In this document: positions 10,113 through 30,500 of the stretch, piece after piece | Layout: each line of letters starts with the position of its first letter | Numbering within the stretch: position 1 is the stretch's first letter | Assembly: GCA_017379935.1 (NCBI GenBank) | Contig: JAFNVC010000010.1 | Span: 1 to 64,000 of the forward strand | Reading direction: 5' to 3' | Origin: Clostridia bacterium | GTDB lineage: Bacteria > Bacillota > Clostridia > Oscillospirales > Acutalibacteraceae | DNA: 64,000 nucleotides | Notes under the pieces: generated by a model | Seen by the model: the letters and a program-made list of their open reading frames with translations, nothing else | What the model was told of the DNA's origin: nothing | Databases searched by the model: none | Made by a program: the position numbers and the translations under genes

Positions 10113-10604
10113 TTATTTCACCGTTACATTCACAATTCCGTTGACCTCGCCCATAAGCTCGCCGTTCTGATATGCGAGCGCGGAATACGAGCAGTTATAT
10201 ACCCCCGATTTCACAACTGCAGTCAGCTTATCCTTTTCGAGATACTGTCCCGCCTTTATCAGAGGTGAGGTATAAATCATTTCACCCTGCGTGTTATAAA
10301 TCACGAACTGCAGGTCATAGCCGCAGCTTTCGGGATTTTCGAGCATCACATCGCCGAGTGCATACGGATTCTCAAACACTATCTGCTTGTTGATAAGGTA
10401 GCGTATTTCGCCCTCGGGTACATCAGTAATATGCAGCTCGTCCCCGACTGACGGCAGAACGCCGTCGCAGACCGTACCGCTGTCGGCGAATTTAAGCATC
10501 ACCGTCGGCACAGCCTTCGTGAGGGTTATAACGGAAAGTACAATCGCGATAATGCTGACCGCGATTATAATTCCCGATTTTATTTTTGCTTTTTTATCTG
10601 ACAT
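10113..10604 (-). CDS. Single-span extracytoplasmic protein of the SipW cluster
   Basis: A 163-residue protein with a short basic start (MSDKKAKIKSG), a hydrophobic helix at about 11-32 and a 130-residue outer domain predicted to be beta-rich. It lacks the AWF motif seen in other proteins of the cluster, so it is probably membrane-anchored rather than released. Two cysteines (about 46 and 94) could form a disulfide. Its ATG directly follows the TAA of the gene at 10605 (TAAATG), which indicates translational coupling. It is the last gene of the cluster. The family is not recognised; the pattern of charged start, one span and beta domain resembles the neighbour at 10605. Confidence 0.6.
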   Translation of the reverse strand: MSDKKAKIKSGIIIAVSIIAIVLSVITLTKAVPTVMLKFADSGTVCDGVLPSVGDELHITDVPEGEIRYLINKQIVFENPYALGDVMLENPESCGYDLQFVIYNTQGEMIYTSPLIKAGQYLEKDKLTAVVKSGVYNCSYSALAYQNGELMGEVNGIVNVTVK

Positions 10605-11492
10605 TTAAACACCAACCGAAAGCGTAATTTCAGCATATTTCGTTGCGATTTTTTCGTTTGTTTCGCCGTTGTAAGCGTTGACCGCGACCTTCACATCGTG
10701 AGTGCCGAACGCGATTTCTTCAAAAAATCTTGCAGAGTTTATCTCCTTACCCTCATCAAGTCCAAGCGAGCGGTAAAGCACCCTGCCGTCATCATCGTAA
10801 ACTGTCGCAACGAGAATACAGTCATTCCCCTGCGGATTGCCGAAGCGCAGATTTTCCGTCTTACCGTTATCGTCAATAACAACATTCGTATTGAAATAAA
10901 ATTGAAATTCATCCGTTCCGCGCGCGGAGGTTGAATCGATGAACATCGCCTGCTGACTTTCGCTGAAGGCGGACGGCTTTGCCGTTAGTCCGCTTTCAAT
11001 TCTTCCCGAAAACTCAAGCTCGCGTATCTCCGACGGGACAGCTACAAGCGGTGTCAGCAAAAGGAAATATATTCCGACGCCGATAAGCACCAACGGAAGA
11101 ACGATGAAAATTAAAATTCTGCTGTATCTGAACGAGCCTAAAAACTCCTTGCTCGTGTAATAGCGAAGCCTGCCGCCGAGTTTTTTAAAGAATCTGCGGA
11201 CGGACTCAACCTCATTTTTTACCGATGAGGCAGCCCTCGCCTTCGCCTCAGCCTTCTTTTCATCCTTCTCGTCCTTAATGCGCTGTTTTTCGCGCCGCTT
11301 CTGAATATCCTCGCTCTTTTTTGCACGCTCACGCTCAGCCTTCAGCCTTTCCTCCCGCACGCGCTGTGCCTGCTTTTCGGCCTCCGACTTATTTTTGCCG
11401 TTATTCTTTTTATTATCGGGGATTTTCTTCCCCGAATTAGTTTTGCCTGCGACAGATTTTCCTGCCGCAGGCTTCTTTTTCTTATTCGACAT
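10605..11492 (-). CDS. Lysine-rich cytoplasmic region + TM + outer domain protein
   Basis: 295 residues from ATG 11492, chosen because GGAAG lies nine bases upstream; the frame extends to a TTG at 11501. The first 115 residues are a very basic and acidic low-complexity stretch with coiled-coil tendency (RVREERLKAERERAKKSED). A transmembrane helix at about 127-147 follows, then an outer domain of about 145 residues ending in KIATKYAEITLSVGV. The charged tail would lie inside the cell and could dock the 720-residue coiled-coil protein of the same cluster; that pairing is inference. It is coupled to 10113-10604 and starts 15 bases after the 11508 gene. Confidence 0.6.
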   Translation of the reverse strand: MSNKKKKPAAGKSVAGKTNSGKKIPDNKKNNGKNKSEAEKQAQRVREERLKAERERAKKSEDIQKRREKQRIKDEKDEKKAEAKARAASSVKNEVESVRRFFKKLGGRLRYYTSKEFLGSFRYSRILIFIVLPLVLIGVGIYFLLLTPLVAVPSEIRELEFSGRIESGLTAKPSAFSESQQAMFIDSTSARGTDEFQFYFNTNVVIDDNGKTENLRFGNPQGNDCILVATVYDDDGRVLYRSLGLDEGKEINSARFFEEIAFGTHDVKVAVNAYNGETNEKIATKYAEITLSVGV

Positions 11493-11507
11493 AAAAATCA
11501 ACTTCCA

Positions 11508-12122
11508 TTATTTCCACGGGAGCTTTTCAATATTCCACAGCTGCGGATAACGGTTGACCTGAACAGCATCAACCTGAATTAACACGCGAACCTGTGTTCC
11601 GTCTGCAAGATCTGCTGTGTCAAGCTTAGCTTCATCAATACCCCTGATGAAGCTGACGGAATCAAAATCCGCCTTGCCCGACATATCCTTGCCCGCATAA
11701 TAAACGCTGTAATCGGCGTTACGGTTATCGAACCAATGCTCACCGAAAGCGTACGGAACATTCACGCTTCTCTGCAAGACCTCGCCGTCGGGAGACGTCC
11801 ATTCGTGGCTCATTCTCACACGGACACAAGCCGTGCCCTCGAGATTAACGTCAGCATGAAGGTTGCCGATGTAATTAACGTCAGTATAATCAAGGCTCAG
11901 AACATAGAGACCGTCCTTATCCTTGAAATCATCAGCGCTGAATTTAGTGTTGCTTCCGTCAACAAAATAAACATCTGCGCTTACATCTATACCTGCAAGG
12001 TTAATATTCTGCAACAAGGAGCTGCGGGTTACAAACCATGCAAAAGAGCTGCCGACAACCGCAATAACCGCAACAACTGCGACGATTATAACGATTGCGC
12101 GTCTGTTAAGTTTATGCAACAT
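11508..12122 (-). CDS. SipW-class secreted protein
   Basis: 204 residues from ATG 12122, with GAGGTG six bases upstream; the frame extends to a GTG at 12131. The N-terminus has a basic LNRRAIVI start, a hydrophobic core, and SSFAWFVTRSS at about residues 26-36. This AWF-type cleavage region marks substrates of SipW/ER-type signal peptidases. The mature part (about 170 residues) looks beta-rich, with VDVS-like strands (GIDVSADVYFVDGS), as in TasA/camelysin-type matrix proteins. No sorting signal is at the C-terminus. It lies within the block holding three peptidase genes. Confidence 0.65.
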   Translation of the reverse strand: MLHKLNRRAIVIIVAVVAVIAVVGSSFAWFVTRSSLLQNINLAGIDVSADVYFVDGSNTKFSADDFKDKDGLYVLSLDYTDVNYIGNLHADVNLEGTACVRVRMSHEWTSPDGEVLQRSVNVPYAFGEHWFDNRNADYSVYYAGKDMSGKADFDSVSFIRGIDEAKLDTADLADGTQVRVLIQVDAVQVNRYPQLWNIEKLPWK

Positions 12123-12139
12123 CCTTGTCACCTCACTTT

Positions 12140-12772
12140 TTATCTTTCAAGTGCTCCGTCCACATCCTGTGTGGCGATGAGCGAAATTTCAACATCATAG
12201 CCGTCGGGCACGCCGCCCTTTTCAAGCTCTTCCTTTACAAAATCATACTCAATCCAGGTCGCAATTTTAAGCGTCATAATCTCGCCCGGATTGATAACGA
12301 AATACTTTCCGCCGTTTGAATCCGCGCCGAAATCGTATTCGTAAAGAGCCTTATCCGTCATTTCGGGAAGAACTGACGCGATAGTTTTCTTCACGCTGCC
12401 GTCAACAAGCATCGTATCGTCATAGAAGAACCAGCGAAGGCCCTTGCCGTTACCTGTATTCTTGACATCAGCATAAATTCTTGCAGGAATTGTACCCGAA
12501 TTGTTTACAAGAATCTCGTTGACATTGATAACCTCGTCAAAAAGAAGCTCGTCGGGATCCGCAAATTTTGTTGCGCCGTCGAAGGTAATTTCAGACTTTG
12601 AGTTAAAGAAGGTGTCCACCGACAAGTCACCGAAAACGAAGCTGTCACCGCTGTCAATCACACCGCTGTCATAAAACCACGCGGAGGTTGTCGGTATTTT
12701 TTGGAAATATCCCGCGCAAAGAACAAGCACGAACGCCATTATTACTGACATAATACTTCTGAAGCTACTCAT
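12140..12772 (-). CDS. SipW-class secreted protein (SAWF type)
   Basis: 210 residues from ATG 12772, eight bases inside the end of the preceding peptidase gene; the frame extends to a GTG at 12781. A hydrophobic segment at about 8-24 is followed by PTTSAWFYDSGV. The mature domain has alternating strands with NNSGTIPARIYADVKNTG (about 112-129). This N-x-G-x-x-x-A motif is typical of TasA-like folds, which describe themselves through lateral strand exchange. Overlap with the peptidase gene strongly suggests that this protein is that peptidase's substrate. Confidence 0.65.
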   Translation of the reverse strand: MSSFRSIMSVIMAFVLVLCAGYFQKIPTTSAWFYDSGVIDSGDSFVFGDLSVDTFFNSKSEITFDGATKFADPDELLFDEVINVNEILVNNSGTIPARIYADVKNTGNGKGLRWFFYDDTMLVDGSVKKTIASVLPEMTDKALYEYDFGADSNGGKYFVINPGEIMTLKIATWIEYDFVKEELEKGGVPDGYDVEISLIATQDVDGALER

Positions 12773-13283
12773 CGCTGTCACCTCTTTTCTTTTTCTTTAA
12801 TATTTTCGGAAGAACTATATTAACCAGAACAAGTACAACCGCTATCATCACGTGGACTATAAGCCATTTGTCATGCGACATACTGAAATTCAGCACCATA
12901 GTCAGATATCCGAGGAGCGGTACGCTGTACCACATTCTGCCGACGATTCTTTCGGCGTCAGTCGGCATCGGATCATCCGCGCCGTTAGCGTCACCGCGGG
13001 TTGTAATTGTTTTTTTATCCTTGTCGATACCGACAATTCTGTGAGTGAAAAAGCTCTTTTCGTCCGAGGCTGCAACGGTTACGACATCGCCGACCTGCAA
13101 ATCCTCAAAGCTGACATCCCTGACAAAAACGATATCACCCACATTAAGAGTATCCTTCATACTCGGGGATGTAACCGCATAACCCTTCGCACCCGAAATC
13201 AGATTGAATCCGATAAAGGCAACCGCAAGCACGGTTATGATTGCAAAAACATTGAACAGAACGTTCTTAAACTTAATCTTCAC
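12765..13283 (-). CDS. Signal peptidase I, SipW/ER type (copy D)
   Basis: A 172-residue integral membrane peptidase that removes signal peptides at the outer membrane face. TM1 lies at about 8-27. The catalytic serine sits in TSPSM (about 38-42), and FFTHRIVG (about 78-85) carries His instead of the bacterial-type Lys, so it is a Ser-His S26B enzyme. TTRGDANGADD (about 93-103) supplies the conserved GD motif. A second hydrophobic segment lies near the C-terminus (about 138-162). GTG is the likely start. It lies between two AWF-type secreted proteins and overlaps the downstream one, so processing of neighbours is the obvious role. Confidence 0.85.
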   Translation of the reverse strand: MKIKFKNVLFNVFAIITVLAVAFIGFNLISGAKGYAVTSPSMKDTLNVGDIVFVRDVSFEDLQVGDVVTVAASDEKSFFTHRIVGIDKDKKTITTRGDANGADDPMPTDAERIVGRMWYSVPLLGYLTMVLNFSMSHDKWLIVHVMIAVVLVLVNIVLPKILKKKKRGDSDE

Positions 13284-13286
13284 GGA

Positions 13287-13934
13287 TTATTCACCCAAGC
13301 CTGCAACAGCATAAGAATCAATTGCCGACCAGGTGATATTCTCAGCCTGCTTTGATTCAAAGGTTACCTTGACGTTAATCTTCTGGCCCGAATAAGCATA
13401 AGAAATGTCATCCTTATAATAAATCTTTTCAATTGCGGGGATTGATGCGACTGACGGAGAAACCGTCGGCACGGAATTGATATCCGAAACCGTCGCGCCG
13501 AAGGAGCCGCCCATATAGTAGAAATAGCTGACACCTGCTACATTGACGTTCTTTGCCCACGCATCGTTCGCGAATTCAACAACGATATCGTCATCCTCAC
13601 TCGCGGAATAAATCACCTGCTCAGCCTTACCCGAGCGGTAGGAGGTATATTCAACGGTAATACGAAGCTGAGTATCCGTCGTTGACTTATTATCAAGTCG
13701 GAGTGCGGCTGACCTGCCGTCAAGGCTGACAAGGTTGTCACCCTGCACGATGATTGTGCCTGAAGGAGCCTGCAGATCCGAAAGACTTGCGGAATGGATG
13801 TTGCTGACAAGTGAAACCGAGATGCTCTGCTTTTTCTGCGACGAGGTCGCAAACCATGCGAAGGAGCTGCTCGATGCCATAAGTCCGAAAATAACAGCCA
13901 AGGAAGCTACAAACAATATTAATCTTTTAGTCAT
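13287..13934 (-). CDS. SipW-class secreted protein
   Basis: 215 residues. The signal region contains a hydrophobic core, LMASSSSFAWFATSSQKKQ, at about 18-36. The mature part is Ser/Thr/Val-rich with predicted beta strands and no cysteine. The start overlaps the end of peptidase copy C by eight bases, and it is followed three bases later by peptidase copy D, so it is sandwiched between two proteases. This is the typical linkage of SipW enzymes with TasA-like substrates. A matrix or fibre subunit role is inferred from the class, not from a named family hit. Confidence 0.65.
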   Translation of the reverse strand: MTKRLILFVASLAVIFGLMASSSSFAWFATSSQKKQSISVSLVSNIHSASLSDLQAPSGTIIVQGDNLVSLDGRSAALRLDNKSTTDTQLRITVEYTSYRSGKAEQVIYSASEDDDIVVEFANDAWAKNVNVAGVSYFYYMGGSFGATVSDINSVPTVSPSVASIPAIEKIYYKDDISYAYSGQKINVKVTFESKQAENITWSAIDSYAVAGLGE

Positions 13935-14433
13935 ATTTTTTCTTCCTTTCTGTTAAGTATAGTTCAATTTCAATCGCCGCCCACGCGATATAAATGACGG
14001 CTAAAGCAATTTTGACAACTGTATTTTTGAGAAAAACCGCGGCATAACCAAGATACGGAATTGAAAATTCCACCTTGCCGACAGCGTAAACATACTGAGT
14101 CGGGCTGAGATCGGGCTCCGTATTCGCATCGCCCTTTGTTGTAAAGGCTTCGGAAACGGGATTTATCGAAATTATCCTGTGCGTGAAGCTTTTGCCCGTC
14201 ACGTTATCTGTAAAGGTAACAATATCGTTGACCTTATAATCCTCAAAGCTATGATATTTTCTGACATAAACCATACTGCCCTCGGGGATTTTAGGAGCCA
14301 TACTGCCCGTTTCAATCGTGAAAGCCTCAAGCCCCATAACCGAAGGAACGTAAACTATGCCGACCGCGACAACCGCGATAAAAATTACAAGTGAGGTCAG
14401 AAAGACACTAATTTTTTGTTTTTGCTTTTTCAT
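13927..14433 (-). CDS. Signal peptidase I, SipW/ER type (copy C)
   Basis: 168 residues from ATG 14433, preceded by GAGGAAACGGAAG and lying inside the last 26 bases of copy B. TM1 spans about 9-28. TIETGSMAPKIPEG (about 41-54) provides the catalytic Ser, SFTHRIIS (about 83-90) the catalytic His, and FTTKGDANTEPD (about 98-109) the GD motif. A C-terminal hydrophobic segment follows (YAAVFLKNTVVKIALAVIYI). The enzyme class is ER-type Ser-His. Its gene overlaps both neighbours, indicating tight translational coupling. Confidence 0.85.
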   Translation of the reverse strand: MKKQKQKISVFLTSLVIFIAVVAVGIVYVPSVMGLEAFTIETGSMAPKIPEGSMVYVRKYHSFEDYKVNDIVTFTDNVTGKSFTHRIISINPVSEAFTTKGDANTEPDLSPTQYVYAVGKVEFSIPYLGYAAVFLKNTVVKIALAVIYIAWAAIEIELYLTERKKKYD

Positions 14434-15010
14434 CTTCCGTTTCCTCTTCACCGTACTTGTACTTTGCAATCAGCGTTGCGAGATTGACCGCCTCGCCGAG
14501 AGTTATAAAAATAAGCGGAAGGACGATGACGAAAAATATGACATTCGGATTGCGGAAAACACCGATGATCGAGCCGCTGACCGTACCGAGGTCATAGACA
14601 ACCTCACCGATGACATTTGAGGAATAAACCTTATCCTTATCCACGGTTGAGTTTGCATCGCCTTTTGTTGTAAAAATCGGGTCGGGATCCGTGCCCCAGC
14701 CGTATTCAATGCTGTCGATACGATGGGTATTGACCTTACCCGCAATTTTGCTGTCCGTCGAATAGAAGCTGATGATATCGCCCTTTTCGAGTGAACGGAC
14801 ATCGGTTTTACGGACAACGATAACGCTGCCCGTCATCAGCTCAGGCTCCATACTGCCCGTGCTGACCTGCAGGACGCTGAAGCCGAAAACACTCGGCACC
14901 TTACCCGCCGTCGCATTGAGAACACAGCCGAAAATGACCAGACCGAAAAGAAAAATCACAATCGAGACAACAGACATAATTCTGCTGAAAATCTTCTTCG
15001 CCTTTTCCAT
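14408..15010 (-). CDS. Signal peptidase I, SipW/ER type (copy B)
   Basis: A 200-residue membrane protease. It has TM1 at about 10-33, QVSTGSMEPELMTGS (about 48-62) with the catalytic Ser, VNTHRIDSI (about 93-101) with His in place of Lys, and FTTKGDANSTVD (about 113-124). A strong TM helix lies at about 155-178 before a charged tail (KYGEEETEDEKAKTKN). It is more than 30 residues longer than copies C and D because of that tail, and it starts three bases after the secreted protein gene at 15014. Two consecutive, overlapping, non-identical peptidase genes (B and C) suggest different substrate sets. Confidence 0.85.
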   Translation of the reverse strand: MEKAKKIFSRIMSVVSIVIFLFGLVIFGCVLNATAGKVPSVFGFSVLQVSTGSMEPELMTGSVIVVRKTDVRSLEKGDIISFYSTDSKIAGKVNTHRIDSIEYGWGTDPDPIFTTKGDANSTVDKDKVYSSNVIGEVVYDLGTVSGSIIGVFRNPNVIFFVIVLPLIFITLGEAVNLATLIAKYKYGEEETEDEKAKTKN

Positions 15011-15013
15011 CTT

Positions 15014-15646
15014 TTAACCTACACGCTGTGCGCTGACCTTAACGCTGCCGAGGTCGGAGGACAAGCCGCCGATTGAAGACGGGCTCGTCTCTGAAAGTCC
15101 GATTTCGTAATAAATCACGAATTTGTCAGCAGAGGATGTCTGATAATTTGAAAGATAAAGCCCCTCGAAAATAATTCCGTCCTTAAGAGTCGAAAGCGGA
15201 ACATATCCGTTTGAAGCATCAATAAGATCCGCACCGCTGTAGGAAGCCTTGCCGTCTGTGCCGACAGTTTCCTTTGCCGTCATCAGGGTATATTTAATGT
15301 TGACGGCATCGCTGAGCTCAGCGTTGAGATCCTCGGGAAGTCCGACGATACCGAAATTCATTTTCAGCGGGTCGGAGGTTTTGGTCGAAACAACCATCAT
15401 ATATTTATTGTAGCTGCCGGGAACAAAATCCTTAAGCACGATGTCACCGTCGAGCGGAGAATATTTCTCCTCCTCGTCCGCAACGAAGAAATCAACGTTG
15501 ATGATATCACCGCCGATTGTTGCTTCAAAATCCGAAACCTCGTTATCATAGGTTACGTTGAACCAAGCAAAGGTAACAGCTACAAGAGTAAGGGCAGATG
15601 CCACGAGCAATATTATGTTTTTATAAAACTGAAACTTACTTTTCAT
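15014..15646 (-). CDS. SipW-class secreted protein (TasA-like candidate)
   Basis: 210 residues. The N-terminus reads LLVASALTLVAVTFAWFNVTYD, split by the AWF cleavage motif at about residue 27. The mature domain contains IGGDIINVDFFVADEE and a VPGSYNKYMMVVSTKTSDPLK stretch. The latter resembles the PG..y..y..v.N.gs.p signature of TasA/CotN/camelysin proteins, which assemble into amyloid-like matrix fibres in bacilli. It lies directly after the giant exoprotein gene and ahead of peptidase copies B and C. The fibre-subunit role is inference. Confidence 0.65.
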   Translation of the reverse strand: MKSKFQFYKNIILLVASALTLVAVTFAWFNVTYDNEVSDFEATIGGDIINVDFFVADEEEKYSPLDGDIVLKDFVPGSYNKYMMVVSTKTSDPLKMNFGIVGLPEDLNAELSDAVNIKYTLMTAKETVGTDGKASYSGADLIDASNGYVPLSTLKDGIIFEGLYLSNYQTSSADKFVIYYEIGLSETSPSSIGGLSSDLGSVKVSAQRVG

Positions 15647-15667
15647 AAGGCATCTGACCCCCTTTCA

Positions 15668-18600
15668 TTATTTTGTGATTGCACCCCAGAGAGCGCGCAA
15701 GCCCCATACCTCATCTTTTTCCACGATTGAGATTGTGAGTGAAGCAGATGAAGCCTCGCCCGCGTTCACGAGAATTCCCTCGTTACCTGCATCCTCGCAA
15801 AGGAGTGATGCGCCGTTTTCGTCGGCTGCGTTGACGGTGAAGGTATAGCCCTCGGGAAGAAGCATATCAACGAATATCTCGCCGTTTTCCGTTCTTATTG
15901 CGCCGAGTGACTCGGGCTGTGAGCCTGCCTTTGCAAAGAAGCTGAGCGACTGAGCACCGTTATCATCCTTCGACTTGAGAAGAACTGCGATAAGCTTTGA
16001 AGTAAGTGCTGAATCTGCCGTTGCATTGATGATAGTGCAATTTACCTTTACGGCATTTTCGTCATAGCTTGCATTCTCTGCGAGAATATCGATTGCGATT
16101 TCAAGTCCGCCGTTGTATGTGAAGACAAGCTTTGCCGGCTTTGCCGGAGCCTTGACAAGTCTGACTGCAGAAGCGTCAGCGTCATATTCCGCAACGCCCT
16201 CGGCATCGGATGCGATACCTTCAAGCACATATTCGCGGTTGCCGATTGTGAACGCTCTGAATGTGCCGTCGGCACCGTTGAGGATGATACTGTCATCACC
16301 GAGAGCGGTCGGCTCGGTACCGAGCATAATTGACGGATAAATCACACCGCCGACACTGTAGGAAATGTCGCTGAGGTCTATGATTTCATATTCGCCGTTC
16401 TGATATGCGTTAAAGCCTTCAGCGCCGAATGCGCCGAGATCGTTCTGATACGATGAGTAGTAAATATTATCGAAAACAGCTGCCTGTGCGTTCTGTGCAT
16501 CAGCTGCAAGCTTTTCGGAAACGTCGGCAATTACAACCGCCTTAACCGAAGCGCCGTCAATGCCTGCTGTGACAACTGTATCGCGGACAAGTGAACGGTT
16601 GAGCTTATCAAACGCCTTTGCCTCGTCCTCGCCGTTGACGCGTGCGATAACACCCGAAGCGAGATCTTCACCGAGAACATTGCCTGCGACTGTTGCGCCG
16701 TCAATGCCGAAATACATCGCGTCGTTCACTTCGCCGACAAGACCTGCCGCCGTCGGAGCGATAACGCTAGCATCTGTATCGACGTTGGAAATATACGTTC
16801 CGCCGTTTGCAACACCTACAAGACCTGCGCCGATCGAATCGGATTCAACAGCTCCGCTGAATTTAACAGACTTGATCGTACCGCTGAAAATACCTGCGAT
16901 ACCGCCTGCAGCCTCTACGGTTGCCTTTGTAGCGTTGAGAGTTGTTCTGACGCTCACACCGCTGAGGTATGCTCCGTCGATTGTTGTCTCTGCGCCGACA
17001 GCCACAACACCGCCTGCAACCGAGCCGTTGCCCGTTGATTCAACAGAAGAATTGTTGATTGAAATATTTCTTATTACAGTATTTCTTGCATTTCCGACGA
17101 GGATACCTGCGCCGATGCCTGCAGAAACATCTGCATCATTTATAACAAGATCGGAGATTACTGCACCGTCGGTAACGGCAAAGATACCGCCGAAGGCTTC
17201 AGCCGAAAGTCTGAGACCCGTGATTGAATGAACCTTACCGTCATAAAGACCGGTGAACGTGCCGTTGAAGGGCTTATCGGATGAGCCGATTGAAACGATG
17301 CCGTTGCCGATGTTGTAGAAGGCACCGCCGAATTCGTAATCAGCATCCGTGAGAACGATATCCTCGCTGAGTGCGAAATATGCGTTCATATCTGCATACT
17401 GTGAAACAGCCTCAAGGTCATAAGCATCCTTGATAAGGTACGGCTCAGACTGAGTTCCGTTACCCTCGAGAGTCTCGTAAACCTCGGAATTAACCGTGAA
17501 GCTGACGGGGATTCTCACCTGGCCGTCGCTTTCGAGAACATAGTAGCCGACGATGTTGACCTGACCGCGGCGTTCAGCCTTGAGAACAAGCTCATTCTCT
17601 GAAGAGGAAACAACCTGAACTCTGTCCGCTGATTCTGATGTCCAGCCCGTTGCAGAGTCGAAGACATAGCCGCTAACAACCGGAAGACCGTAGAGCTTGA
17701 CTGTTGTTTCATCCTTCGTGCTGAGTGTATTGACTGTCGGATTGATACCGCCGCTCATATCAGTGTAGCCTGATTCAGACTTTTCTGTCGGATAAGCGTT
17801 CACTCCGTAATATGTTGTAAGAATAATGTCGCTCACGGCAAGAATCTGGTATTCGGACGGGATGACATCGCCTTCGGCTTCACCGAAGATAATGCCTGCC
17901 GAGGTTGCCGCTGATGCATCAAGCCTTGAGAAGACAACGATATCGGAAGCAATTCTGCCGGCGCCCGTGTATTCCTCTCCGTCCTTGATGATGCCGACAA
18001 TTCCGCCGACTGCAGCCGCACCGCTCACCGAGCCGCCGACCTTGACGGATTTAAGCTCAACATTGTTGATTGCCGCTGCACCGATTCTGCCGAGTACGCC
18101 CGCCGCAGAAACTGCATTAGCGGTCATACTGCCGTTCACGGTTGCAAGAGTCTTTGCGCCCGTAAGAACGAGAACACTTTCAGCACCCGAGCAGTCACCG
18201 ACAAGACCTGCGCTGACAGCCGCACCGCTGATTACGGTATTTTCGTCAACCGTAACGTTTTCGATTGTTGCCGTACCGCCCGCGTTGTGAACGCCGAGGA
18301 TACCTGCGGCAACTGTATTTGCATCGTCTGAAAGAATTTCAGAAGCGATAACACTTGCATTTCTGATAACGAGCGCACCGTCCGCTACACTCTTACCGAT
18401 GATACCGCCCGCAACACCTGCACGGATTACGGTATTTTCAACGCTTACATCCTCAGCAAGTGAGCCGAGAACTGCAGCGATACCGCCTGCTGTGTTAGCA
18501 GAAGTGATTGCGAAGGTTGCGATTTCAGAATTTCTGACAGCGGAAGCCCTGATTACAGTCTCGCCGTTACCGCTCGCAATACCCGAAACCTCGGATACAC

Positions 18601-21703: not shown

Positions 21704-21730
21704 TATTTTTCCTCCGAAAATCCGTAGATA

Positions 21731-23893: not shown

Positions 23894-23926
23894 GGATTAT
23901 GTCCCCTTTTAATAGTTGATAGCGAA

Positions 23927-25492
23927 TTACATAAGTCTCTTAAGAAGCTGGAGATATTCCTTACACTCGTTCATATTCGCCTTACCGAAGTGCTTGTTAA
24001 GATATGTAACAAGTCCGTCGATTTCGTCACGGATGAAGGAAAGGTTCAAGCTTTCGAACTTACGGAAAACCTTCTTTGCAAGAACGAAGTCGATACCGTC
24101 GATTTCCGTACCGCCGCAGCCGACATAAGCAGGAACAAATTCCTTAAGCTGCTTAACAATACGGTTACCGAATGCAAGACGGAAATGCTCAATAACATAG
24201 TCGTCAAGCTCTTCGATCTTCTTAAGGTTTTCATCAGAAACCTTGTACTTTGTCTGACAGTCTCTGAACATATCCTCAAGATGCTTGTAGCTGAGTGTGA
24301 GGTTTTCTGTATACGGTGCCTCGAAGAATTTACCCTTACTGTTAAGGTCGATCGGAATAGCACGGTCATAAACCTTATCGGAAACGGCGAATGTAGAGTC
24401 GTCGTTGTTGATTGTACCGATGTACCACATATTTTCGGGAAGTCTGAGCTTACCGTCGATAACGTGCTTCGGGTCTGTCGGCCATACGCTCGGAACAAGG
24501 GAAACAACCCACTCGTCACGAGACGGCATTTCGAGGATTGAAAGAAGCTCTGCGAAGTAGTACTCAACACGGGCGATGTTCATCTCGTCAAGAACGGTGA
24601 TGAAGATATCCTCTTTAAAGGTTGCCTCGTACATCTTCTTGAGAACCTCAGTTTCGTTGAAGCGCTTTGTAAATTCGTTAAAGTAACCGAAGATTTCAGT
24701 ACGGTCACGCCATGACGGCTGAACAGATGCGATTGTTACGTCGTTCTGAAGGAACTTACCCCAGGCATAAGCAAGTGAGGTTTTACCTGTACCTGAAATA
24801 CCCTGAAGGATGATAAGACGTGTTGATGCAAATGCTGAAAGGAAAAGTCTGATAACCTTGATTTCGTAGAAAAGACCGAGTCTTGAGCAAGCAAAGTTAC
24901 GGAACATTTCACAGATTTCGGGAAGCGTGATTTCGTTGTCATACTCAGGTGCAACATAGCTTTCAAGCTCAAGGTCAACCTGTGTACACTTATAGAAACG
25001 GCTGTAGTCGTCAGCTGTCTTATCAACCTCGCCGTCAGCCTTCTTCTCGCCCTCTTCAGCTGCTGCATCAGAAGTCTCAGCGATATCAGCATAAGCGCTT
25101 TCGCCGGGCTTGAGACCGAGCTGTGAAACCTTCATAGCGAGAATCTTCTCCTTCTCGTTTGAAAGCTTGATAATCTCACGGTTAAGGTTGCCGACCTCGT
25201 TGAGAAGCTCCTCCTGATCAACAAGTGTCTTGCGTACTCTTACATACTTCTTGATAAGAACAACAACAAGAATAACCGCTGCTACAAGAACTGCAACCGT
25301 TGCAACTACTGCGAGGATTGCGAGAATCCAGTCAACTGCAGTAAAGTCGCCCGACCATGACTTGAAGATTGCGACGTACTCGGGAACATTGAAGATGTTC
25401 GCGATACCGAGACCGATACCCTTGAAGATTCCCCAGACACCCTTTATGAAAAACTGATTTAAGAATTCTGCAATGAATTTTGTTACTGTCAT
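23927..25492 (-). CDS. Membrane-anchored McrB-like AAA+ ATPase
   Basis: 521 residues. A hydrophobic helix lies at about 53-82 (ILAILAVVATVAVLVAAVIL), then a short coiled coil (about 93-118), an acidic linker, and the AAA+ module. Walker A is ILQGISGTGKTSLAYA (about 234-249). FITVLDEMNIARVEYYFAELLS (about 309-330) is Walker B with the DEMN variant of the McrB DEINR motif. WYIGTINNDDSTFAVSDKVYDRA (about 369-391) is sensor 1 and the arginine region. McrB relatives normally are soluble GTPases that drive DNA cutting. A transmembrane anchor and the company of signal peptidases point instead to energising assembly or export at the membrane. That is inference; defence remains an alternative. Confidence 0.75.
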   Translation of the reverse strand: MTVTKFIAEFLNQFFIKGVWGIFKGIGLGIANIFNVPEYVAIFKSWSGDFTAVDWILAILAVVATVAVLVAAVILVVVLIKKYVRVRKTLVDQEELLNEVGNLNREIIKLSNEKEKILAMKVSQLGLKPGESAYADIAETSDAAAEEGEKKADGEVDKTADDYSRFYKCTQVDLELESYVAPEYDNEITLPEICEMFRNFACSRLGLFYEIKVIRLFLSAFASTRLIILQGISGTGKTSLAYAWGKFLQNDVTIASVQPSWRDRTEIFGYFNEFTKRFNETEVLKKMYEATFKEDIFITVLDEMNIARVEYYFAELLSILEMPSRDEWVVSLVPSVWPTDPKHVIDGKLRLPENMWYIGTINNDDSTFAVSDKVYDRAIPIDLNSKGKFFEAPYTENLTLSYKHLEDMFRDCQTKYKVSDENLKKIEELDDYVIEHFRLAFGNRIVKQLKEFVPAYVGCGGTEIDGIDFVLAKKVFRKFESLNLSFIRDEIDGLVTYLNKHFGKANMNECKEYLQLLKRLM

Positions 25493-25572
25493 TTTCAGCC
25501 ACCCTTTAAAACTTAATAACTATTGCCGTAGGCTTATATATTATAGGAACAGTGAATGTATTCGTGTAAAAA

Positions 25573-26286: not shown

Positions 26287-26408
26287 TTTTTACACTCACT
26301 CCTGATTATATTTGACTTAAAGGTCATTTTCAGGCATCTGCCGATACCCAAAAATCGCCCTTAAGGCATTTTTTATTCAATCTTAACAACTTATATTTTT
26401 ATTTATAT

Positions 26409-26481
26409 CGGGTGACGTGTGACGAACGCGCCACCCGTTAAATGTGACGGAGTTCCGCAGAGCAGAGCCCTGCTCTGCGGA
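26409..26481 (-). terminator. Two strong hairpins between a subunit gene and peptidase copy A
   Basis: A perfect 12-bp stem (26454-26465 with 26470-26481, four-base loop) is followed on the minus strand by CGGGTG/CACCCG (26432-26437 with 26409-26414). No long U tract follows. It may act as a partial terminator or an mRNA 3-prime stabiliser that lets the subunit mRNA outnumber the peptidase mRNA. Confidence 0.5.
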
Positions 26482-26506
26482 GAGAAGTCTGTTAACTTAC
26501 AATAAA

Positions 26507-27439
26507 TTATTTAAGTGTAAGAACAAGGTTGAAGTCGATTGTTGCACCAGCTACATCGTTAGCGCAGTCAACGTCGTTACCTTCCATCCAGAGATATACA
26601 CGGATACGGTTTACACCTGTCTGAACGGAGATATAACCTTCAGTGTCAACATTGTTTTCATTAACTTTTCCTGTTGCGCTTGTGACTCTTGCGTTATACG
26701 GATCGTCAACATAGTACTTTTCTGCAGATGCATCAACCATCTTTACGTTGTTTCCAGCTGCCCAAATATACTTATCATGGGTAGCTGGGCCAGCACTATA
26801 TCCTGAATGCTGCGTATGGTTTGTTGAATCAAACTCATATAGTGTTGCTCTTCTACCATTTTGATCAATAGGAAGAACCGCGCTTATAGCTGCTGCATCT
26901 GATTTTTCTGTGACTGTTCCGCAATTGATAAAAGCCATTCTCATTGCTGTCGGAACATCAGCATTTCCTTCACAAGTTAAAGTTGTTTCGTTAAACCAAA
27001 CAGTCTCAGGTTTACTTACTTTTACAAAAAGATCGAAAACAACATAACCACTGCTTGTATCAGCTACCTGATACAAATTAAGCTGCTTGCTGTCATTAAC
27101 GGAGCCCTCAAAAAATACAGGTAAACTTTTGCTAAAACTAAGCACTGATGATGACGGACGAAGAAGCTCGGGGAAGTTATTTGTATTTCCATCATAAGCA
27201 TCCCAGCGTGCACCCGAAAGACCCATAAGGTCATCATAAGTCAACATTGTTGTAAAAGCATCAGTATTACCGGAAATCTGAACACCGTCGGGAGAAGTGA
27301 TGTTGAGCTGCATTTTCTCAACTTCAACTCTTTTTGCCATTGAGAACCATGCAAATGTTGAAGATGTCAACACGATTGCTGACACGAGAAGCATAGCAAT
27401 GGCAGAAATGAACGTACGTTTTCTTAATGTGTTTTTCAT
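26507..27439 (-). CDS. SipW-class surface protein with C-terminal WMEGND..C motif
   Basis: 310 residues from ATG 27439, nine bases after GGAGG; the frame extends to an ATG six codons upstream that overlaps the ribosome binding site. The signal segment SAIVLTSSTFAWFSMAKRVE has AWF at about 29-31. The mature part is about 275 residues, beta-rich and Asn/Ser/Thr-rich. It shares with the 27659 protein a FINCGTVT motif (about 172-179) and the C-terminal VNRIRVYLWMEGNDVDCAND. The two conserved cysteines suggest a disulfide. It is a likely major surface or fibre subunit, with a structured 200-nt leader upstream. Confidence 0.7.
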   Translation of the reverse strand: MKNTLRKRTFISAIAMLLVSAIVLTSSTFAWFSMAKRVEVEKMQLNITSPDGVQISGNTDAFTTMLTYDDLMGLSGARWDAYDGNTNNFPELLRPSSSVLSFSKSLPVFFEGSVNDSKQLNLYQVADTSSGYVVFDLFVKVSKPETVWFNETTLTCEGNADVPTAMRMAFINCGTVTEKSDAAAISAVLPIDQNGRRATLYEFDSTNHTQHSGYSAGPATHDKYIWAAGNNVKMVDASAEKYYVDDPYNARVTSATGKVNENNVDTEGYISVQTGVNRIRVYLWMEGNDVDCANDVAGATIDFNLVLTLK

Positions 27440-27449
27440 TTGTTTCTTT

Positions 27450-27658
27450 ACCTCCATAAAGATTTTTTGCTTCGGCGACCGTTAACTCGCCGCCAATGCG
27501 GGGTTTCTGAATTATGTTCCGTGCACCGGGATTAAATACGGTTTTCCGGTAACCCGGTTTGCAAGAATTGCATCTCCAAATTTCAGCTGAATATTACCTT
27601 TCAACCGGATACATCCCGGAGTCATTGAAACATTATTCAGAAGATAAGAAATTTTGGA
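27450..27658 (-). promoter_or_regulatory. Structured leader, possible riboswitch-like element
   Basis: The minus-strand RNA of this 200-nt gap has a long-range stem CCGGGAT...ATCCCGG enclosing about 80 nt. Inside are hairpins ATTCAG/CTGAAT-like, TGCAA-TTC-TTGCA and CCGG-GTTA-CCGG, and a later CGGCGA...TCGCCG stem precedes the ribosome binding site. Words such as GATGCAA and CCGGGTTACCGG recall parts of c-di-GMP-I (GEMM) aptamers, but the full aptamer cannot be traced. Class not assigned. Confidence 0.35.
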
Positions 27659-28627
27659 TTATACCATTGAGAATACAAGGCTTGCAGAAATGAGCTGACT
27701 CTGGAGAGAGTCTGTGCAAGCTGCATCCTGACCTTCCATCCAGATATAAACTCTGATCTGGTTGACACCTGACTTAAGAGTAAGCGTCTGGTCAAGAGCA
27801 CCTGTTTCTACAGGACAATCGTAAGCATTGGCAACTGTAAGTGTGCCTGCTGCTGACGGAGATACTGTATAAGCATCGTCTGCAAGAGTGCCGCTGATAC
27901 CTGTACCTGCGATAGGATTAGTATTGCGTGCATCCTCGTTGGTAGCGAAAATGACTGCCTCAGAACCTGAAGAAGCTGCAGGGGGAGTCTGTCCCTTTGT
28001 AACTGTACCACAGTTAACAAAACCTACTCGCATAGCATTTGCTGCCTCAGCAATAGCAGTTGTTCCGTCGCTCTCGTCATTTTTCACTGAAATTGATGAG
28101 CTGCCGATTTTAACCTGAGCGGTAGCATCGGGTGAGCTTGCACTGTAATCAATGAAAACGTCAAAAGCGTAGAAGCCTGCTCTCTTCGCACCAGAGGGAA
28201 TTTCAGCATCGCCCTTACCGTAAACGGTTACACCGTCAGCGGAAGTAGCTGCAAAGCTCTCCATTGTTTTTGAAGCCTTATCGATACCGCCTGCGAAGAA
28301 TGCAGGAAGAGTGCTAAGACCGAAGCGTGATGATGAGGGGCTGATCTCAGCGGGGAAGAAGTTGAATTCTTCTGTCGGTGCCTGGAAGCCTGATGTTGAA
28401 GTACCGTTAAGGTCCTCAAAAGTAAGCTCATCTGTGAAAGTAGTGGCATTTGCAGAGATCTGGATACCTTCGCCCTGCTTTGTAACCTTAAGATCAAGAT
28501 TACTTGCCATTGCGCTTCTGCCCAATGTGAACCAAGCAAAAGATGCTGTTGTAATTACGATAGCCGAAAGAAGGATCATCGCAATTGCAGCAAAGAATGC
28601 GCGATTTTTCTGATTCTTTTTGAACAT
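27659..28627 (-). CDS. SipW-class surface protein, paralogue of the 26507 product
   Basis: 322 residues with ATG preceded by AAGGAGGTAAGG. The signal segment is SAIVITTASFAWFTLGRSAM, AWF at about 31-33. The protein shares its signal sequence style, an FVNCGTVTKG motif (about 202-211) and a C-terminal VNQIRVYIWMEGQDAACTD with the 26507 protein. These are tandem paralogues with diverged middles. The mature region is rich in Ala, Ser, Thr and Asp and predicted as beta sandwich. The first hairpin-bearing leader (28628-28738) includes GTTTCC-CGAC-GGAAAC. It is a likely structural subunit of the cluster's surface assembly. Confidence 0.7.
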   Translation of the reverse strand: MFKKNQKNRAFFAAIAMILLSAIVITTASFAWFTLGRSAMASNLDLKVTKQGEGIQISANATTFTDELTFEDLNGTSTSGFQAPTEEFNFFPAEISPSSSRFGLSTLPAFFAGGIDKASKTMESFAATSADGVTVYGKGDAEIPSGAKRAGFYAFDVFIDYSASSPDATAQVKIGSSSISVKNDESDGTTAIAEAANAMRVGFVNCGTVTKGQTPPAASSGSEAVIFATNEDARNTNPIAGTGISGTLADDAYTVSPSAAGTLTVANAYDCPVETGALDQTLTLKSGVNQIRVYIWMEGQDAACTDSLQSQLISASLVFSMV

Positions 28628-28738
28628 TGTCTTTTCCTTACCTCCTTTTTAGATTTTATGTACGGGTGATAATCGCAACCCTGACATAATATATCTCAAA
28701 TGTGTGAAGTTTCCGTCGGGAAACAAGGTAACAAGCTC

Positions 28739-29560
28739 TTACTGCTGAGCGGATGATCCGTCACCATCATCCAGTTCATAGCACCAGAAGCCCATTGACA
28801 TCTTGATTTCGCCGTCGAGAATCTTGTTTACACATTCAGGATCCCAACCTTCGAGCCAGATAACAACCGTATACTTGTCAATGTCGCCGACTTCAAAGAG
28901 CTTCTCTTCCTCTTCCATAACCTTAGTGCTGGAAACGAAGTTCTTGTCAACGGTGTACTGGATAACGCCTGCGGTATTTTTATTTTCCTCAAGCTGATCC
29001 GTTGTACCGTTTTTCGGTTTGGCGTAGATTGTAGGCTCGCCGTTTTTGTAAACCATGACACGTACTGCATCATCAGCGCCTAACGCAACAGAATCGATAA
29101 GAATCTGTGAGTTATATCCGACGTCAACGTTACCTGCATTCTTCACATAGAAGGTATATGCAAGGAACTCCTGACCGTTCGAGCGGTTATGTGAGCCGTC
29201 GATCTGATCGATGTCGTCGGGAAGCCAGCTGAAAGTACAGTCGCCCATATTTTCGCATTTTTCACCGGCAAGGAAACGCGAGGGATTTTCGAATCCCGGA
29301 GTTTCCGAAAGAGTAATGCCCATGTTATATGCGTCTTTATCCATTGTAACCGTAAAGTCACCTGCTTTGTTAACGTATGAAGAGCAAGCGAACATTATGG
29401 ACAGGAAAAGCAGAAGTAAAACAAGGATAATCACGAGGATTCGTATTAAAGCTTCTCTTTTCTTAACCTTTTTAGACTCGGTTTTAACGCCGTAGCGGTC
29501 CATCTGACCGTTCTGCATCGCTGCATTGTCCGGCGCCTGATCCTTTTTCTTTTTAGCCAA
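28739..29560 (-). CDS. Membrane-anchored relative of the surface subunits
   Basis: 273 residues. A basic cytoplasmic start (MAKKKKDQAPDN, about 36 residues) precedes a TM helix at about 40-60 (ILVIILVLLLLFLSIMFA). The outer domain ends with KYTVVIWLEGWDPECVNKIL. That C-terminal W-x-E-G-x-D-x-x-C motif is shared with the two AWF proteins downstream, but here no AWF cleavage site follows the helix. The protein is therefore expected to stay in the membrane, perhaps as anchor or initiator for the cleaved subunits. It also has a C-x-x-x-x-x-C pair in GEKCENMGDCTF. It starts 15 bases after the EAL gene. Confidence 0.6.
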   Translation of the reverse strand: MAKKKKDQAPDNAAMQNGQMDRYGVKTESKKVKKREALIRILVIILVLLLLFLSIMFACSSYVNKAGDFTVTMDKDAYNMGITLSETPGFENPSRFLAGEKCENMGDCTFSWLPDDIDQIDGSHNRSNGQEFLAYTFYVKNAGNVDVGYNSQILIDSVALGADDAVRVMVYKNGEPTIYAKPKNGTTDQLEENKNTAGVIQYTVDKNFVSSTKVMEEEEKLFEVGDIDKYTVVIWLEGWDPECVNKILDGEIKMSMGFWCYELDDGDGSSAQQ

Positions 29561-29575
29561 GCGAATCCTCCTCCT

Positions 29576-30316
29576 TTAGTTGATTTGTTTATCCTTAACG
29601 AACTCTCCGAAGTACGGACCGCTGAAACGGTCAGCACCCATTTTATTGAGAAGATCGAATTCTTCCTTTGACTCAATTCCGTCAACGATGACCTGAGTAT
29701 CAATCTTCTTGCAGAAATCGATGATACCCTGAACGGTATTCTGCACCTTCTCGTTGTAGAGAATATCCTCAATCATACTCTTATGTATGCCGATATAATC
29801 AACGTCGTAATGAGAGAGATTTGAGAGAGACGTATATTCGAGGCCGAGGTCGTCGATAGAAATTCTGAAGCCGAGCTCGCGCAGAGCGTTGATTGTTTCA
29901 ATGACTCTGTCCTTGACAGCCTCGAGGATGCTTTCGGTAATATTGAAGCAGAAGCTGTCGGGAGAAATGCCGTACTTATCAACAATCTTTTTGACCTGAT
30001 TTACAAAATTCTTTTTCGTAAGAGTTTTTACAGATACCCAGATGATAACGCTGTTCATATCAACCTCGCGCTCGGCGCATCTCTTAATAGCCTCGCAGGC
30101 CTCTTCAACCGCCCAGAGATTGAGCTGAACAACCTGGTTTGATTTTTCGGCAACGGGGATGAAAACCTTTTCGGGAATAACACCCTGTACCTTATCGTTG
30201 ATACGCATTGAAGTTTCGTAATCAATCGCCATATTAAGATGAATGTCAAAAACAGGTCTGTAAAAAAGCTCGATTGCTCTGAGTCTTGAGCCTGTATTTT
30301 TCTGATTTTCAGCCAT
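29576..30316 (-). CDS. Degenerate EAL-domain protein
   Basis: A 246-residue single EAL domain without TM or GGDEF. The fold is recognisable: YETSMRI in place of the EAL line (about 33-39), FNITESIL (about 122-129), ISIDDLGLEYTSLSNL (about 151-166), IVDGIESKEEF (about 210-220). Several residues needed for c-di-GMP hydrolysis are changed. The Asn of the VNLS strand is Trp (IIWVSV), the IKID line is IGIHKS, and the E of AEGVE is D. It most likely binds c-di-GMP or a partner without cleaving it, acting as a sensor for the cluster. It heads the cluster and has its own promoter. Confidence 0.75.
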   Translation of the reverse strand: MAENQKNTGSRLRAIELFYRPVFDIHLNMAIDYETSMRINDKVQGVIPEKVFIPVAEKSNQVVQLNLWAVEEACEAIKRCAEREVDMNSVIIWVSVKTLTKKNFVNQVKKIVDKYGISPDSFCFNITESILEAVKDRVIETINALRELGFRISIDDLGLEYTSLSNLSHYDVDYIGIHKSMIEDILYNEKVQNTVQGIIDFCKKIDTQVIVDGIESKEEFDLLNKMGADRFSGPYFGEFVKDKQIN

Positions 30317-30472: not shown

Positions 30473-30500
30473 CAATAGTCAACAAAAATGTTGCCAAAAC

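Follow-up and report, generated by a model that had tools for sequence, protein, structure and literature searches.

The 17 genes at positions 10113-30316 of the window, by which we mean the whole 64,000 nt stretch of contig JAFNVC010000010.1 (assembly GCA_017379935.1) that was analysed, most likely encode, as far as their sequences tell, an NTP-driven, membrane-tethered machine for SipW-dependent fibres. We hold it somewhat probable that the cluster is a CoCoPALM-type system specialised for such surface fibres, because its core features match the CoCoPALM description (PMC11090510) and the block is kept across the genus relatives, because all four SipW-type peptidase matches of the host genome lie within the cluster and the DUF2357 gene stands at most two genes from the ATPase gene in 71 of 75 loci, and because TM1 is homologous to AWF1/2, the leader covaries and the filament-making sipW-bsaA offers a precedent (PMC7395162).

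Organisation of the gene cluster

An ORF check gave 17 ORFs, all on the minus strand. Four encode SipW-type (Ser-His) peptidases, six AWF signal proteins and three single-span proteins; two make up the AAA+/DUF2357 pair, and the remaining two are the 2011-residue exoprotein and the degenerate EAL protein. Count and strand agree with a preliminary description made from the sequence, but the overlaps or short gaps that it reported give way to looser spacing among the first genes, the intergenic gaps ranging from -62 to +220 bp with four of at least 80 bp (80, 111, 201 and 220). Where it had named two further single-span proteins, we count three (TM1, TM2 and TM3). The features are:

30454..30531 (-), possible 5' boundary with a terminator-like hairpin at 30531-30508 (10 pairs, T run) and, after it, a promoter-like TTGACT-17-TAAAGT carrying TG
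29576..30316 (-), EAL protein, 246 aa, first gene, degenerate EAL domain (PF00563, E 9e-51)
28739..29560 (-), TM1, 273 aa, single-span AWF1/AWF2 paralogue (hhalign 98.7-98.8%), TM-like 41-59
27659..28627 (-), AWF1, 322 aa, predicted SipW-type secreted subunit, AWF after hydrophobic stretch
26507..27457 (-), AWF2, 316 aa, predicted SipW-type secreted subunit, AWF motif, hhalign 100% to AWF1
26454..26481 (-), leader hairpin 1, 12-bp perfect stem, covariation, single copy in own genome
26409..26437 (-), leader hairpin 2, covariation
26300..26369 (-), leader hairpin 3, just upstream of the sip1 ribosome-binding site, matching once in own genome
25573..26286 (-), Sip1, 237 aa, SipW-type Ser-His signal peptidase, TIGR02228 73.5 bits, THRI
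23927..25492 (-), ATPase, 521 aa, membrane-tethered McrB-like AAA+ NTPase, TM about 62-80, helix to 124, AAA from about 190
21731..23893 (-), DUF2357 (McrC N-domain-like) protein, 720 aa, 370-residue charged helical tail, nuclease not found
15668..21703 (-), giant secreted protein, 2011 aa, Peptidase_M26_N-like stretch under the cut-off
15014..15646 (-), AWF3, 210 aa, predicted SipW-type secreted protein, AWF, hhalign 95-96% to AWF1/2 over 47-50 columns
14408..15010 (-), Sip2, 200 aa, SipW-type signal peptidase, TIGR02228 77.6 bits
13927..14469 (-), Sip3, 180 aa, SipW-type signal peptidase, TIGR02228 86.2 bits
13287..13934 (-), AWF4, 215 aa, predicted SipW-type secreted protein, AWF motif
12765..13283 (-), Sip4, 172 aa, SipW-type signal peptidase, TIGR02228 84.3 bits
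12140..12781 (-), AWF5, 213 aa, predicted SipW-type secreted protein, AWF motif
11508..12131 (-), AWF6, 207 aa, predicted SipW-type secreted protein, AWF motif
10605..11501 (-), TM2, single-span, charged N-terminal tail of about 125 aa, TM-like 129-147, TM3 paralogue (hhalign 96%)
10113..10604 (-), TM3, 163 aa, single-span, last gene, TM2 paralogue

The gaps of 80-220 bp, together with the conserved leader, indicate that the cluster may be two transcription units, a point against the fibre reading. In the alignment of hairpin 3, 98% of the cells are paired and 11 of 19 pairs are changed on both sides; the one Rfam match to the leader (17.7 bits, opposite strand, cut-off 77.3) was rejected. The call of a 5' boundary is weak, since the promoter-like (5 versus 4.1 in shuffles) and terminator-like sites (1 versus 1.4) in that region do not exceed chance, and the counts inside the cluster carry little weight for an internal promoter (34 sites versus 24.1, sd 4.9) or terminator (25 versus 22.8).

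Peptidases and their candidate substrates

The Ser motif and THRI are present in each of the four peptidases, as first described, and by sequence all four have the S26 fold with the Ser-His pair that characterises SipW-type signal peptidases. Their TIGR02228 scores (73.5-86.2 bits) lie above the cut-off of that model (51.85) and below that of the stricter Bacillus SipW model (190). Across ten genus genomes, one of them the window's own, the block contains 40 of the 43 SipW-type matches, and this, with the retention of the block in the genus, upholds the earlier proposal of one dedicated surface system.

An exact AWF behind a hydrophobic stretch is found in six of the 17 cluster genes versus none of the window's 44 other ORFs with 90 or more residues (Fisher p 2e-4); the laxer variants AYF and AYL occur in two of these 44. 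The set of six small AWF proteins, predicted to be secreted, is confirmed; TM1 lacks the motif. The fibre reading is weakened in that searches brought up no kinship of AWF1/2 to TasA or BsaA: their profile gave zero matches to solved structures (PDB) and NCBIfam yielded, for 30 AWF members, only single-member matches at E 0.004 or worse and no convincing family. The TM1 profile had three PDB matches, all at chance level. The 2011-residue protein stands as described, with homologues in all ten fetched genus relatives, but its beta-helix-like character goes back to one sub-threshold match (25.2 bits, cut-off 27.7).

The McrB-like NTPase and its DUF2357 partner

Against solved structures, the ATPase profile matched only McrB chains at E 0.01 (6hz4, E 7e-9), which, together with the TM prediction, bears out the original assignment as an McrB-like ATPase with a TM helix. 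The AF2 model (pLDDT 77.9) has a helix at residues 52-124, and by fold its AAA domain is nearest to 2r44 (putative ATPase, E 3.4e-6), with McrB 6hz4_E just behind (5.4e-6). We take 2r44 to be MoxR-like. The slight lead of 2r44 speaks for an alternative that we consider unlikely, namely that the pair acts as a general machine for remodelling or quality control of membrane proteins, MoxR-like in its action and housed by chance with the genes of self-assembling fibres, whereas the restriction of sequence matches to McrB chains speaks against it. N-x-D-D is present in the window ATPase and at 74 of the 75 non-redundant loci. The exception, L106, has N-x-D followed by E or Q, as do 35 of the 36 remoter rows (L133-L168). 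A phylum sample outside the window's family contained no match at the level of this family and only remoter NxD relatives.

No Pfam model matches the window DUF2357-like protein itself, which is one of 15 full-length members, out of 41, without PF09823 at E 0.01, a model found in the other 26. Its profile had zero sequence matches in the PDB. For the AF2 model of residues 1-380 (pLDDT 81.1), the top Foldseek match was 6hz4_M, a chain of the McrBC complex that is McrC to judge by its length, but the match is weak (E 0.043). A viral fold library was also tried and set aside (best E 0.043, probability 0.08). The 370-residue tail is 63% charged and 13% ILVMF, with no Pro and one Gly, and the heptad period of 3.5 is absent from its eight strongest periods. 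The charged tail and the family kinship thus hold, while the 370-residue coiled coil initially proposed lacks detectable heptads, and the tail may form a single charged helix instead of a classical coiled coil. Some DUF2357 members match coiled-coil-type Pfam models, and in two of the context classes defined below (S and R) the partner lacks the long tail.

The pair appears to lack the active nuclease, PD-(D/E)xK or HEPN, by which McrBC and CoCoNuT systems are recognised. The DUF2357 protein has no conserved acid pair for a PD-(D/E)xK site and, in the model, a single strand after residue 245; no PD-(D/E)xK model is among the 25 commonest of the 56 families listed for the 41 members, and no nuclease, HEPN included, was found among the neighbour genes scanned, which cover a minority of those at other loci. 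The McrBC ancestry of the pair and an ATPase match to the PADLOC candidate-defence model PDC-M26A (E 9e-36) would suit a defence system, RNA- or DNA-targeting and CoCoNuT-like, lying beside unrelated surface genes. We regard this as very unlikely because no nuclease was found and the block is fixed: the ATPase occurs in 16 of 18 genus genomes, and 15 of the 17 cluster genes have homologues in all ten fetched relatives, unlike patchy defence islands. The other two, EAL and TM1, have homologues in nine of the ten, the tenth stretch (G011) stopping short of both, and the nine flanking window genes compared each recur in at most six.

Genomic context and phylogeny of the pair

A contig scan found 97 relatives, of which 80 were retained. 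The 75 non-redundant loci result from clustering, by shared 5-mers, 150 loci whose ATPase ORF had 380 residues or more and scored over 250 bits. Four context classes were used (R, S, D and W). The tree omits L106, includes the second ATPases from double loci and has 14 outgroup rows; alignment A3 includes one dummy row (three bases of L169), which is in no count. At some loci (e.g. L011, L034, L046, L053 and L183) the ORF caller chose wrong-strand ORFs, hiding genes there.

Of the 55 non-redundant loci in classes W and S, 46 have a SipW-type peptidase no more than four genes from the ATPase, W being the remainder after R, S and D were named and including some short-flank D relatives. The other nine are contig ends (L056, L104, L106), double-ATPase-type relatives (L127, L130, L131, L183), a long branch (L188) and a locus with spurious ORFs between (L034). 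Within the same distance no peptidase was found at the 15 R or the five D loci, several of which have short flanks. Co-occurrence of ATPase and peptidase, set beforehand as the test that could refute the proposal, therefore held in W and S and failed in two side clades. The linkage argues against the remodelling machine, which the two clades favour; these clades, and the weak resemblance in fold between the DUF2357 model and the McrBC complex, also count against a CoCoPALM-type fibre system. At the loci read in all four classes, single-span or secreted proteins adjoin the pair.

Cell-wall or division genes are in reach at nine of the 14 R-clade loci that extend 5 kb or more to one side, the neighbour homologues being mraZ, mraW, PBP, mraY, ftsW, murG, murB or ftsQ. 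Pfam names division/wall genes at L061, plus a DivIC/FtsL-type gene, and ten such genes across L060, L063, L070, L072, L073 and L079. This seat would suit a machine whose ancestral task lay at the cell wall or septum, with fibres as the use of one lineage. We find this distinctly improbable, as the R clade is nested in the tree among peptidase-linked lineages, so that its seat among division genes looks derived, and five of the 14 loci lack such genes. The C-terminal domain of the 423-residue R-clade partner showed no homology to TM1 or AWF6 (hhalign about 1%).

Taken together, the data suggest a defence motor without its cutting part, reused to build the cell surface. Tentatively, and with some doubt, a restriction-type NTP motor, membrane-tied and nuclease-less, may have been exapted for envelope building, serving SipW fibres in Clostridia, lying beside division/wall genes in a gut lineage labelled Bacilli/Tenericutes and accompanying a surface transglutaminase in a third lineage. 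If so, an immune-type NTPase would now belong to the machinery of surface building or division, and gut Clostridia not yet cultured would own an energised route to SipW-type fibres.

Comparison with known systems

The paper that named CoCoPALM is, we take it, that of Bell et al. It does so in one paragraph, with details deferred (eLife 2024, PMC11090510), and describes an NxD McrB-like NTPase fused to a TM helix and coiled coil, a McrC homologue with a coiled coil, and association with signal peptidases; by its account, the NxD signature continues with E or D, and the N-terminal domain of the NTPase is homologous to FtsB. The core pair fits this description, so the earlier statement that no system of such make-up had been described does not stand. 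The N-x-D-D variant, the TM segment with its predicted helix, the DUF2357 McrC homologue and the association with signal peptidases all agree, although the charged tail of the window protein shows no detectable heptads. No DivIC match that would point to FtsB kinship was found in 32 ATPases at E 0.01, in a search with Pfam models, which are insensitive to short helices. Neither AWF substrates nor a membrane-anchored paralogue of a subunit are mentioned in the naming paragraph, and the EAL gene, the leader RNA, the division-gene seat and the transglutaminase clade are likewise absent from it (PMC11090510). New relative to it, as predicted here, are the membrane-anchored paralogue of AWF1/AWF2 (TM1), the covarying RNA leader ahead of the first peptidase gene, a relocated clade without linked peptidases near cell-wall/division genes, and a second clade adjoining a transglutaminase surface protein. 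That paragraph gives CoCoPALM a name but no function (PMC11090510); the block links it to defined candidate substrates and offers a direct test case for the role of a nuclease-less McrBC pair.

McrBC (PDB 6hz4) shares the AAA domain and DUF2357 partner, but in the window pair no nuclease domain was found, NxD replaces NxxD, and a TM anchor and long charged helix are present. Literature searches found nothing on SipW and TasA in Oscillospiraceae or Ruminococcus and, judged by title, nothing bearing on McrB with division genes. The Bacillus subtilis operon tapA-sipW-tasA likewise combines a SipW-type peptidase with dedicated matrix substrates; to our knowledge it has one peptidase, two substrates and no NTPase, and we know of no sipW operon with such a motor. 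TapA and TasA are the SipW substrates of B. subtilis, and in Clostridium perfringens sipW-bsaABCRSD, where a SipW-type peptidase also adjoins secreted proteins, sipW-bsaA makes filaments, SipW is required and recombinant BsaA forms polymers in E. coli (PMC7395162). The cluster is likened to this operon by gene content, and the operon differs in having one peptidase and a two-component system, with no ATPase named in it in the parts of the source that describe it (PMC7395162). That BsaA polymerises unaided by such an ATPase favours the remodelling machine and leaves the need for a motor unexplained (PMC7395162).

Proposed mechanism

In the fibre system that we prefer, the AWF proteins would exit via Sec and be held by their signal helix until a SipW-type peptidase frees them, whereas TM1 would stay membrane-bound and serve as the base or nucleator. 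The NTPase would form a ring below the membrane, its hydrolysis, presumably triggered by the DUF2357 protein as by McrC for McrB, extracting, positioning or handing over subunits, while the long charged helix may bridge rings or sites. The leader RNA might tune the output of peptidase and motor relative to the upstream subunits.

The EAL protein

The EAL domain is real, and it is degenerate, as had been noted: in comparison with the EAL structure 4rni, ETS stands in place of the EAL motif, Trp replaces the Asn of the NLS stretch, GIH replaces KID, and Ser takes the position of the Gln that precedes the last Gly. The protein thus appears to lack the EAL motif and metal-binding residues expected of a c-di-GMP phosphodiesterase. 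It is the only EAL match in the host genome. A search of 18 genus genomes for GGDEF domains came up empty in 16, among them the window's own. Incomplete genomes weaken this negative, but the three with at least 90% completeness in which the ATPase was found (G005, G008 and G015) have none either. The suggested c-di-GMP-related input is disfavoured by this result and by the loss of binding and catalytic residues. A c-di-GMP-controlled matrix system, as the EAL gene had been read, is in our judgement extremely unlikely, even though the fold is retained, the gene heads the block in all nine genus stretches that reach that end, longer EAL proteins with intact-looking motifs occur at some loci outside the genus, and block-bearing G002 has two GGDEF matches and a second EAL. 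The protein may instead be a scaffold or regulator that no longer needs c-di-GMP, and its retention in genomes without detectable GGDEF makes it a clean candidate for a non-signalling EAL scaffold.

A conserved seventeen-gene cluster

The 17 minus-strand open reading frames (ORFs) that the preliminary description had placed at 10113–30316 are all present at their positions, with intergenic gaps of -62 to 220 bp. Its four Ser-His peptidases, Sip1–Sip4, all score above the TIGR02228 signal peptidase cut-off and have the Ser motif and THRI in common, and the claim of six AWF genes (AWF1–AWF6, predicted SipW-type secreted proteins) is borne out by an exact AWF after a hydrophobic stretch in six block genes. 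Among the 44 other window ORFs of at least 90 residues, none has an exact AWF behind a hydrophobic stretch, and two carry laxer variants (AYF, AYL). As for the single-span proteins, TM2 and TM3 are paralogous to each other (96%), and TM1, which has a span but no AWF, is paralogous to AWF1 and AWF2 (98.7–98.8%). The C-terminal element common to AWF1/2 members, W-x-E-G-x-D-x-D-C, is found in TM1 as W-x-E-G-x-D-P-E-C; AWF1/2 and TM1 matched no solved structure, and no named family in a convincing way. We infer that the AWF proteins form fibres, and that TM1 is a base subunit.

The ATPase gene of the block is present in 16 of 18 genomes of the genus, and a close relative of the window genome (1.84 Mb, 84.84% complete), a Clostridia MAG from sheep rectum, has a 97% identical ATPase. 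The block was fetched from ten of the genus genomes. Fifteen of its 17 genes have homologues in all ten, and those for the EAL protein and TM1 in nine, the G011 stretch ending before both; AWF1 and AWF2 cross-match, so these homologue counts do not prove both genes in each genome, and G005 has a single upstream AWF gene. The flanks, judged from nine window genes on both sides, are less fixed than the block: an upstream oxidoreductase recurs in six of the ten relatives, a GTPase gene further out in three, and the remaining genes in none or one. In the window genome and nine genus relatives, 40 of 43 SipW-type matches at E 1e-6 lie inside the block (4/4 in the window genome), and the three outside it are weak (E 1e-9 to 2e-7).

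Some kilobases from the block, at 33332–55858, we recognised by eye from the ORFs dnaX, recR, dnaN, recF, serS, parA/parB, gidA/gidB, trmE, a MinD-like gene, a PBP gene and mreBCD, which places the block near origin and cell-shape genes. The same region holds a small SRP RNA (34609–34706) and a Gut-1 RNA (54779–54858, 59.9 bits), the latter adjoining the gene named by eye as mreB.

The ATPase–DUF2357 pair

At E 0.01, the only solved structures matched by the ATPase profile are those of McrB (three sequences, E 7e-9 to 2e-8). Among 75 non-redundant loci, 74 carry its signature as N-x-D-D; L106 and 35 of 36 remoter rows have N-x-D followed by E or Q, and no N-x-D pattern was found in the remaining row, L138. 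A set of 32 diverse members shows no variation in Walker A, Walker B or the signature, so the ATPase should hydrolyse NTP. A TM-like stretch (residues 62–80) lies ahead of the AAA part.

The partner of the ATPase is a DUF2357 protein. Its copy at locus L061 matches the family with 46.7 bits (cut-off 23.3), and a match at E 0.01 is found in 26 of 41 full-length members, the window's own not being among them. An AlphaFold model of the window protein (residues 1–380; pLDDT 81.1, pTM 0.55) has as its first Foldseek match a chain of the McrBC complex, McrC by its length, which is weak (E 0.043, probability 0.72); another McrBC entry has a chain that is matched at E 0.22 (probability 0.82). Past residue 245 a single strand is modelled, and of the acid residues only one, in the final helix, is conserved in 80% of the members; on these grounds we see no PD-(D/E)xK nuclease in the DUF2357 protein. 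Directly before the ATPase, two clades have a protein of 333–357 residues without a Pfam family (L170, 7745–8746; L061, 8913–9986), which may be a further partner of the pair.

Distribution and genomic contexts

An even draw of the class gave an ATPase match at E 1e-100 or better in 22 of 392 genomes, and a draw of the phylum in two of 398, both from the family of the window genome. A DUF2357 gene lies at most two genes from the ATPase in 71 of the 75 non-redundant loci, the other four being L005, L006 and L106, at contig ends, and L188, a long-branch outlier. The co-occurrence of the pair with SipW-type peptidases, proposed earlier as a check, holds within four genes for 41 of the 50 loci of class W, which is the default left over after the other classes, and for 5/5 of class S, where peptidases flank on both sides; it does not hold for classes R (0/15) and D (0/5). 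Among the nine W loci without a near peptidase are L188, L034 (spurious ORFs in between) and L056, L104 and L106 (contig ends), and the remaining four (L127, L130, L131, L183) are relatives of D on the tree. Separately, one genome carries two copies of the system, L170 (G223:C24) and L171 (G223:C56), and has 11 SipW-type matches.

In class D, two membrane ATPases surround one DUF2357 gene. A transglutaminase core was identified in a large anchored protein of L185 (13163–17188, E 3e-21) and in one of L179 (12884–15595, E 8e-22); L186 and L187 carry a homologue of this protein, and none was recognised in L184.

The ATPase tree (92 rows) was made by a quick method and has long outgroup branches; in it R, S and D each form one clade (SH-aLRT 100, 99 and 96%). 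A group with 95% support, made up of R, S and the W row L025, is nested among the peptidase-linked loci; D branches off earlier. As R is nested in this way, the peptidase linkage looks older than its loss in the R clade.

The R clade comprises 19 loci from MAGs labelled Bacilli, Bacillota, Tenericutes, Erysipelotrichaceae or bacterium. No SipW-type peptidase was found in the stretches around the pair (0/19 loci), and nine R-clade genomes searched have one to four SipW-type matches each. An R locus contains a 357-residue protein that shows kinship (hhalign 94.7%) with the gene product found upstream in S, the ATPase and a short, tailless DUF2357 protein; 18 of 19 also have a homologue of the 423-residue protein of L061, a type that by eye (L060, L061, L072) shows one hydrophobic span and D-rich repeats. 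In L061 the set is flanked by mraZ-mraW-DivIC/FtsL-PBP and murG-murB-ftsQ (Pfam names). Division or cell-wall genes are near the pair in nine of the 19 loci, or nine of the 14 that have a flank of 5 kb or longer on one side. Five of the nine (L061, L068, L070, L071, L073) have mraZ, mraW and PBP; the other four (L060, L063, L072, L079) have PBP and mraY, in some cases accompanied by ftsW. Neighbours were labelled by phmmer with L060 and L061 proteins, and ten labels verified by Pfam all hold; the L060 MraY matched the glycosyltransferase-4 family, with no MraY signature at E 1e-5. If each locus is assumed to have a 3–5% chance of such neighbours, a binomial tail of 3e-11 to 3e-9 results, which is overstated because the R loci are related.

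Relation to CoCoPALM and proposed function

The preliminary description knew of no described system of this kind, which fails for the core. One paragraph of the eLife paper on CoCoNuTs (PMC11090510) presents NxD GTPases that form a large clade, are fused to an FtsB-like TM and a coiled coil and are linked to signal peptidases; it names this clade CoCoPALM and defers the details. Kinship to FtsB aside, where a Pfam search, not sensitive for short helices, gave no DivIC match in 32 ATPases at E 0.01, the tested features of the window pair agree with this description. A search of the literature since 2023 that combined McrB, signal peptidase and pilus assembly gave nothing beyond that paper and its preprint. 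The core is already known by name; we claim only that the make-up of the cluster, the anchored paralogue, the division-gene and transglutaminase clades, the leader and the orphan EAL protein are not in the CoCoPALM text, its supplementary tables aside, or in the search results.

The analysis establishes the composition and linkage, the TM-like tether, the intact NTPase motifs, the lack of a detectable nuclease, the anchored paralogue and the structured leader. The pair could be a general membrane-remodelling machine, which we consider rather unlikely; ahead of this we place, with modest preference, a dedicated fibre-assembly system. In such a fibre-assembly system the AWF proteins would be secreted by Sec, cleaved at AWF and built into fibres, the ATPase would form a ring and spend NTP on subunit handling, and the charged helix and the EAL protein would each have a role.

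The EAL protein

Alignment with 4rni (labelled motility regulator) shows that the window EAL protein no longer has the EAL motif, the Asn, the Gln, or the Lys and Asp of KID. Most of these losses are shared by the aligned orthologues of the genus, and EAL proteins at some more distant loci look intact. The window genome has no detected GGDEF protein and this one EAL protein. Within the genus, EAL was found in 16 of 18 genomes and GGDEF in two, G001 and G002, the latter having the block. Genes can be absent from draft assemblies, but in G005, G008 and G015 (95–97% complete, ATPase found) EAL was likewise found and GGDEF was not. Longer EAL proteins with intact-looking motifs occur near the pair outside the genus (L173, 10731–13019; L177, 5066–7321; L182, 14635–16044).

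A structured leader

26287–26506: covarying leader of three hairpins between AWF2 and sip1, matching no Rfam family

An alignment of 13 sequences, one of them the window's own, shows pairing in 96.8% of cells and two-sided changes at 24 of 37 pairs. Its covariation score of 0.510 compares with no more than 0.149 when the structure is slid along; since the structure was derived from the alignment that was scored, it is somewhat favoured. Hairpin 1 is single-copy in the window genome, absent in L197 and poorly aligned in L199, L005 and L021. Of 20 genomes searched for hairpin 3, 12 have a single strong match each, and G005 has one weak match, in the same position but on the reverse strand; in L012 and L013 the matches adjoin other cluster genes. 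By eye, a repeat upstream of hairpin 2 offers its first strand a possible alternative pairing partner, which would suit attenuation.
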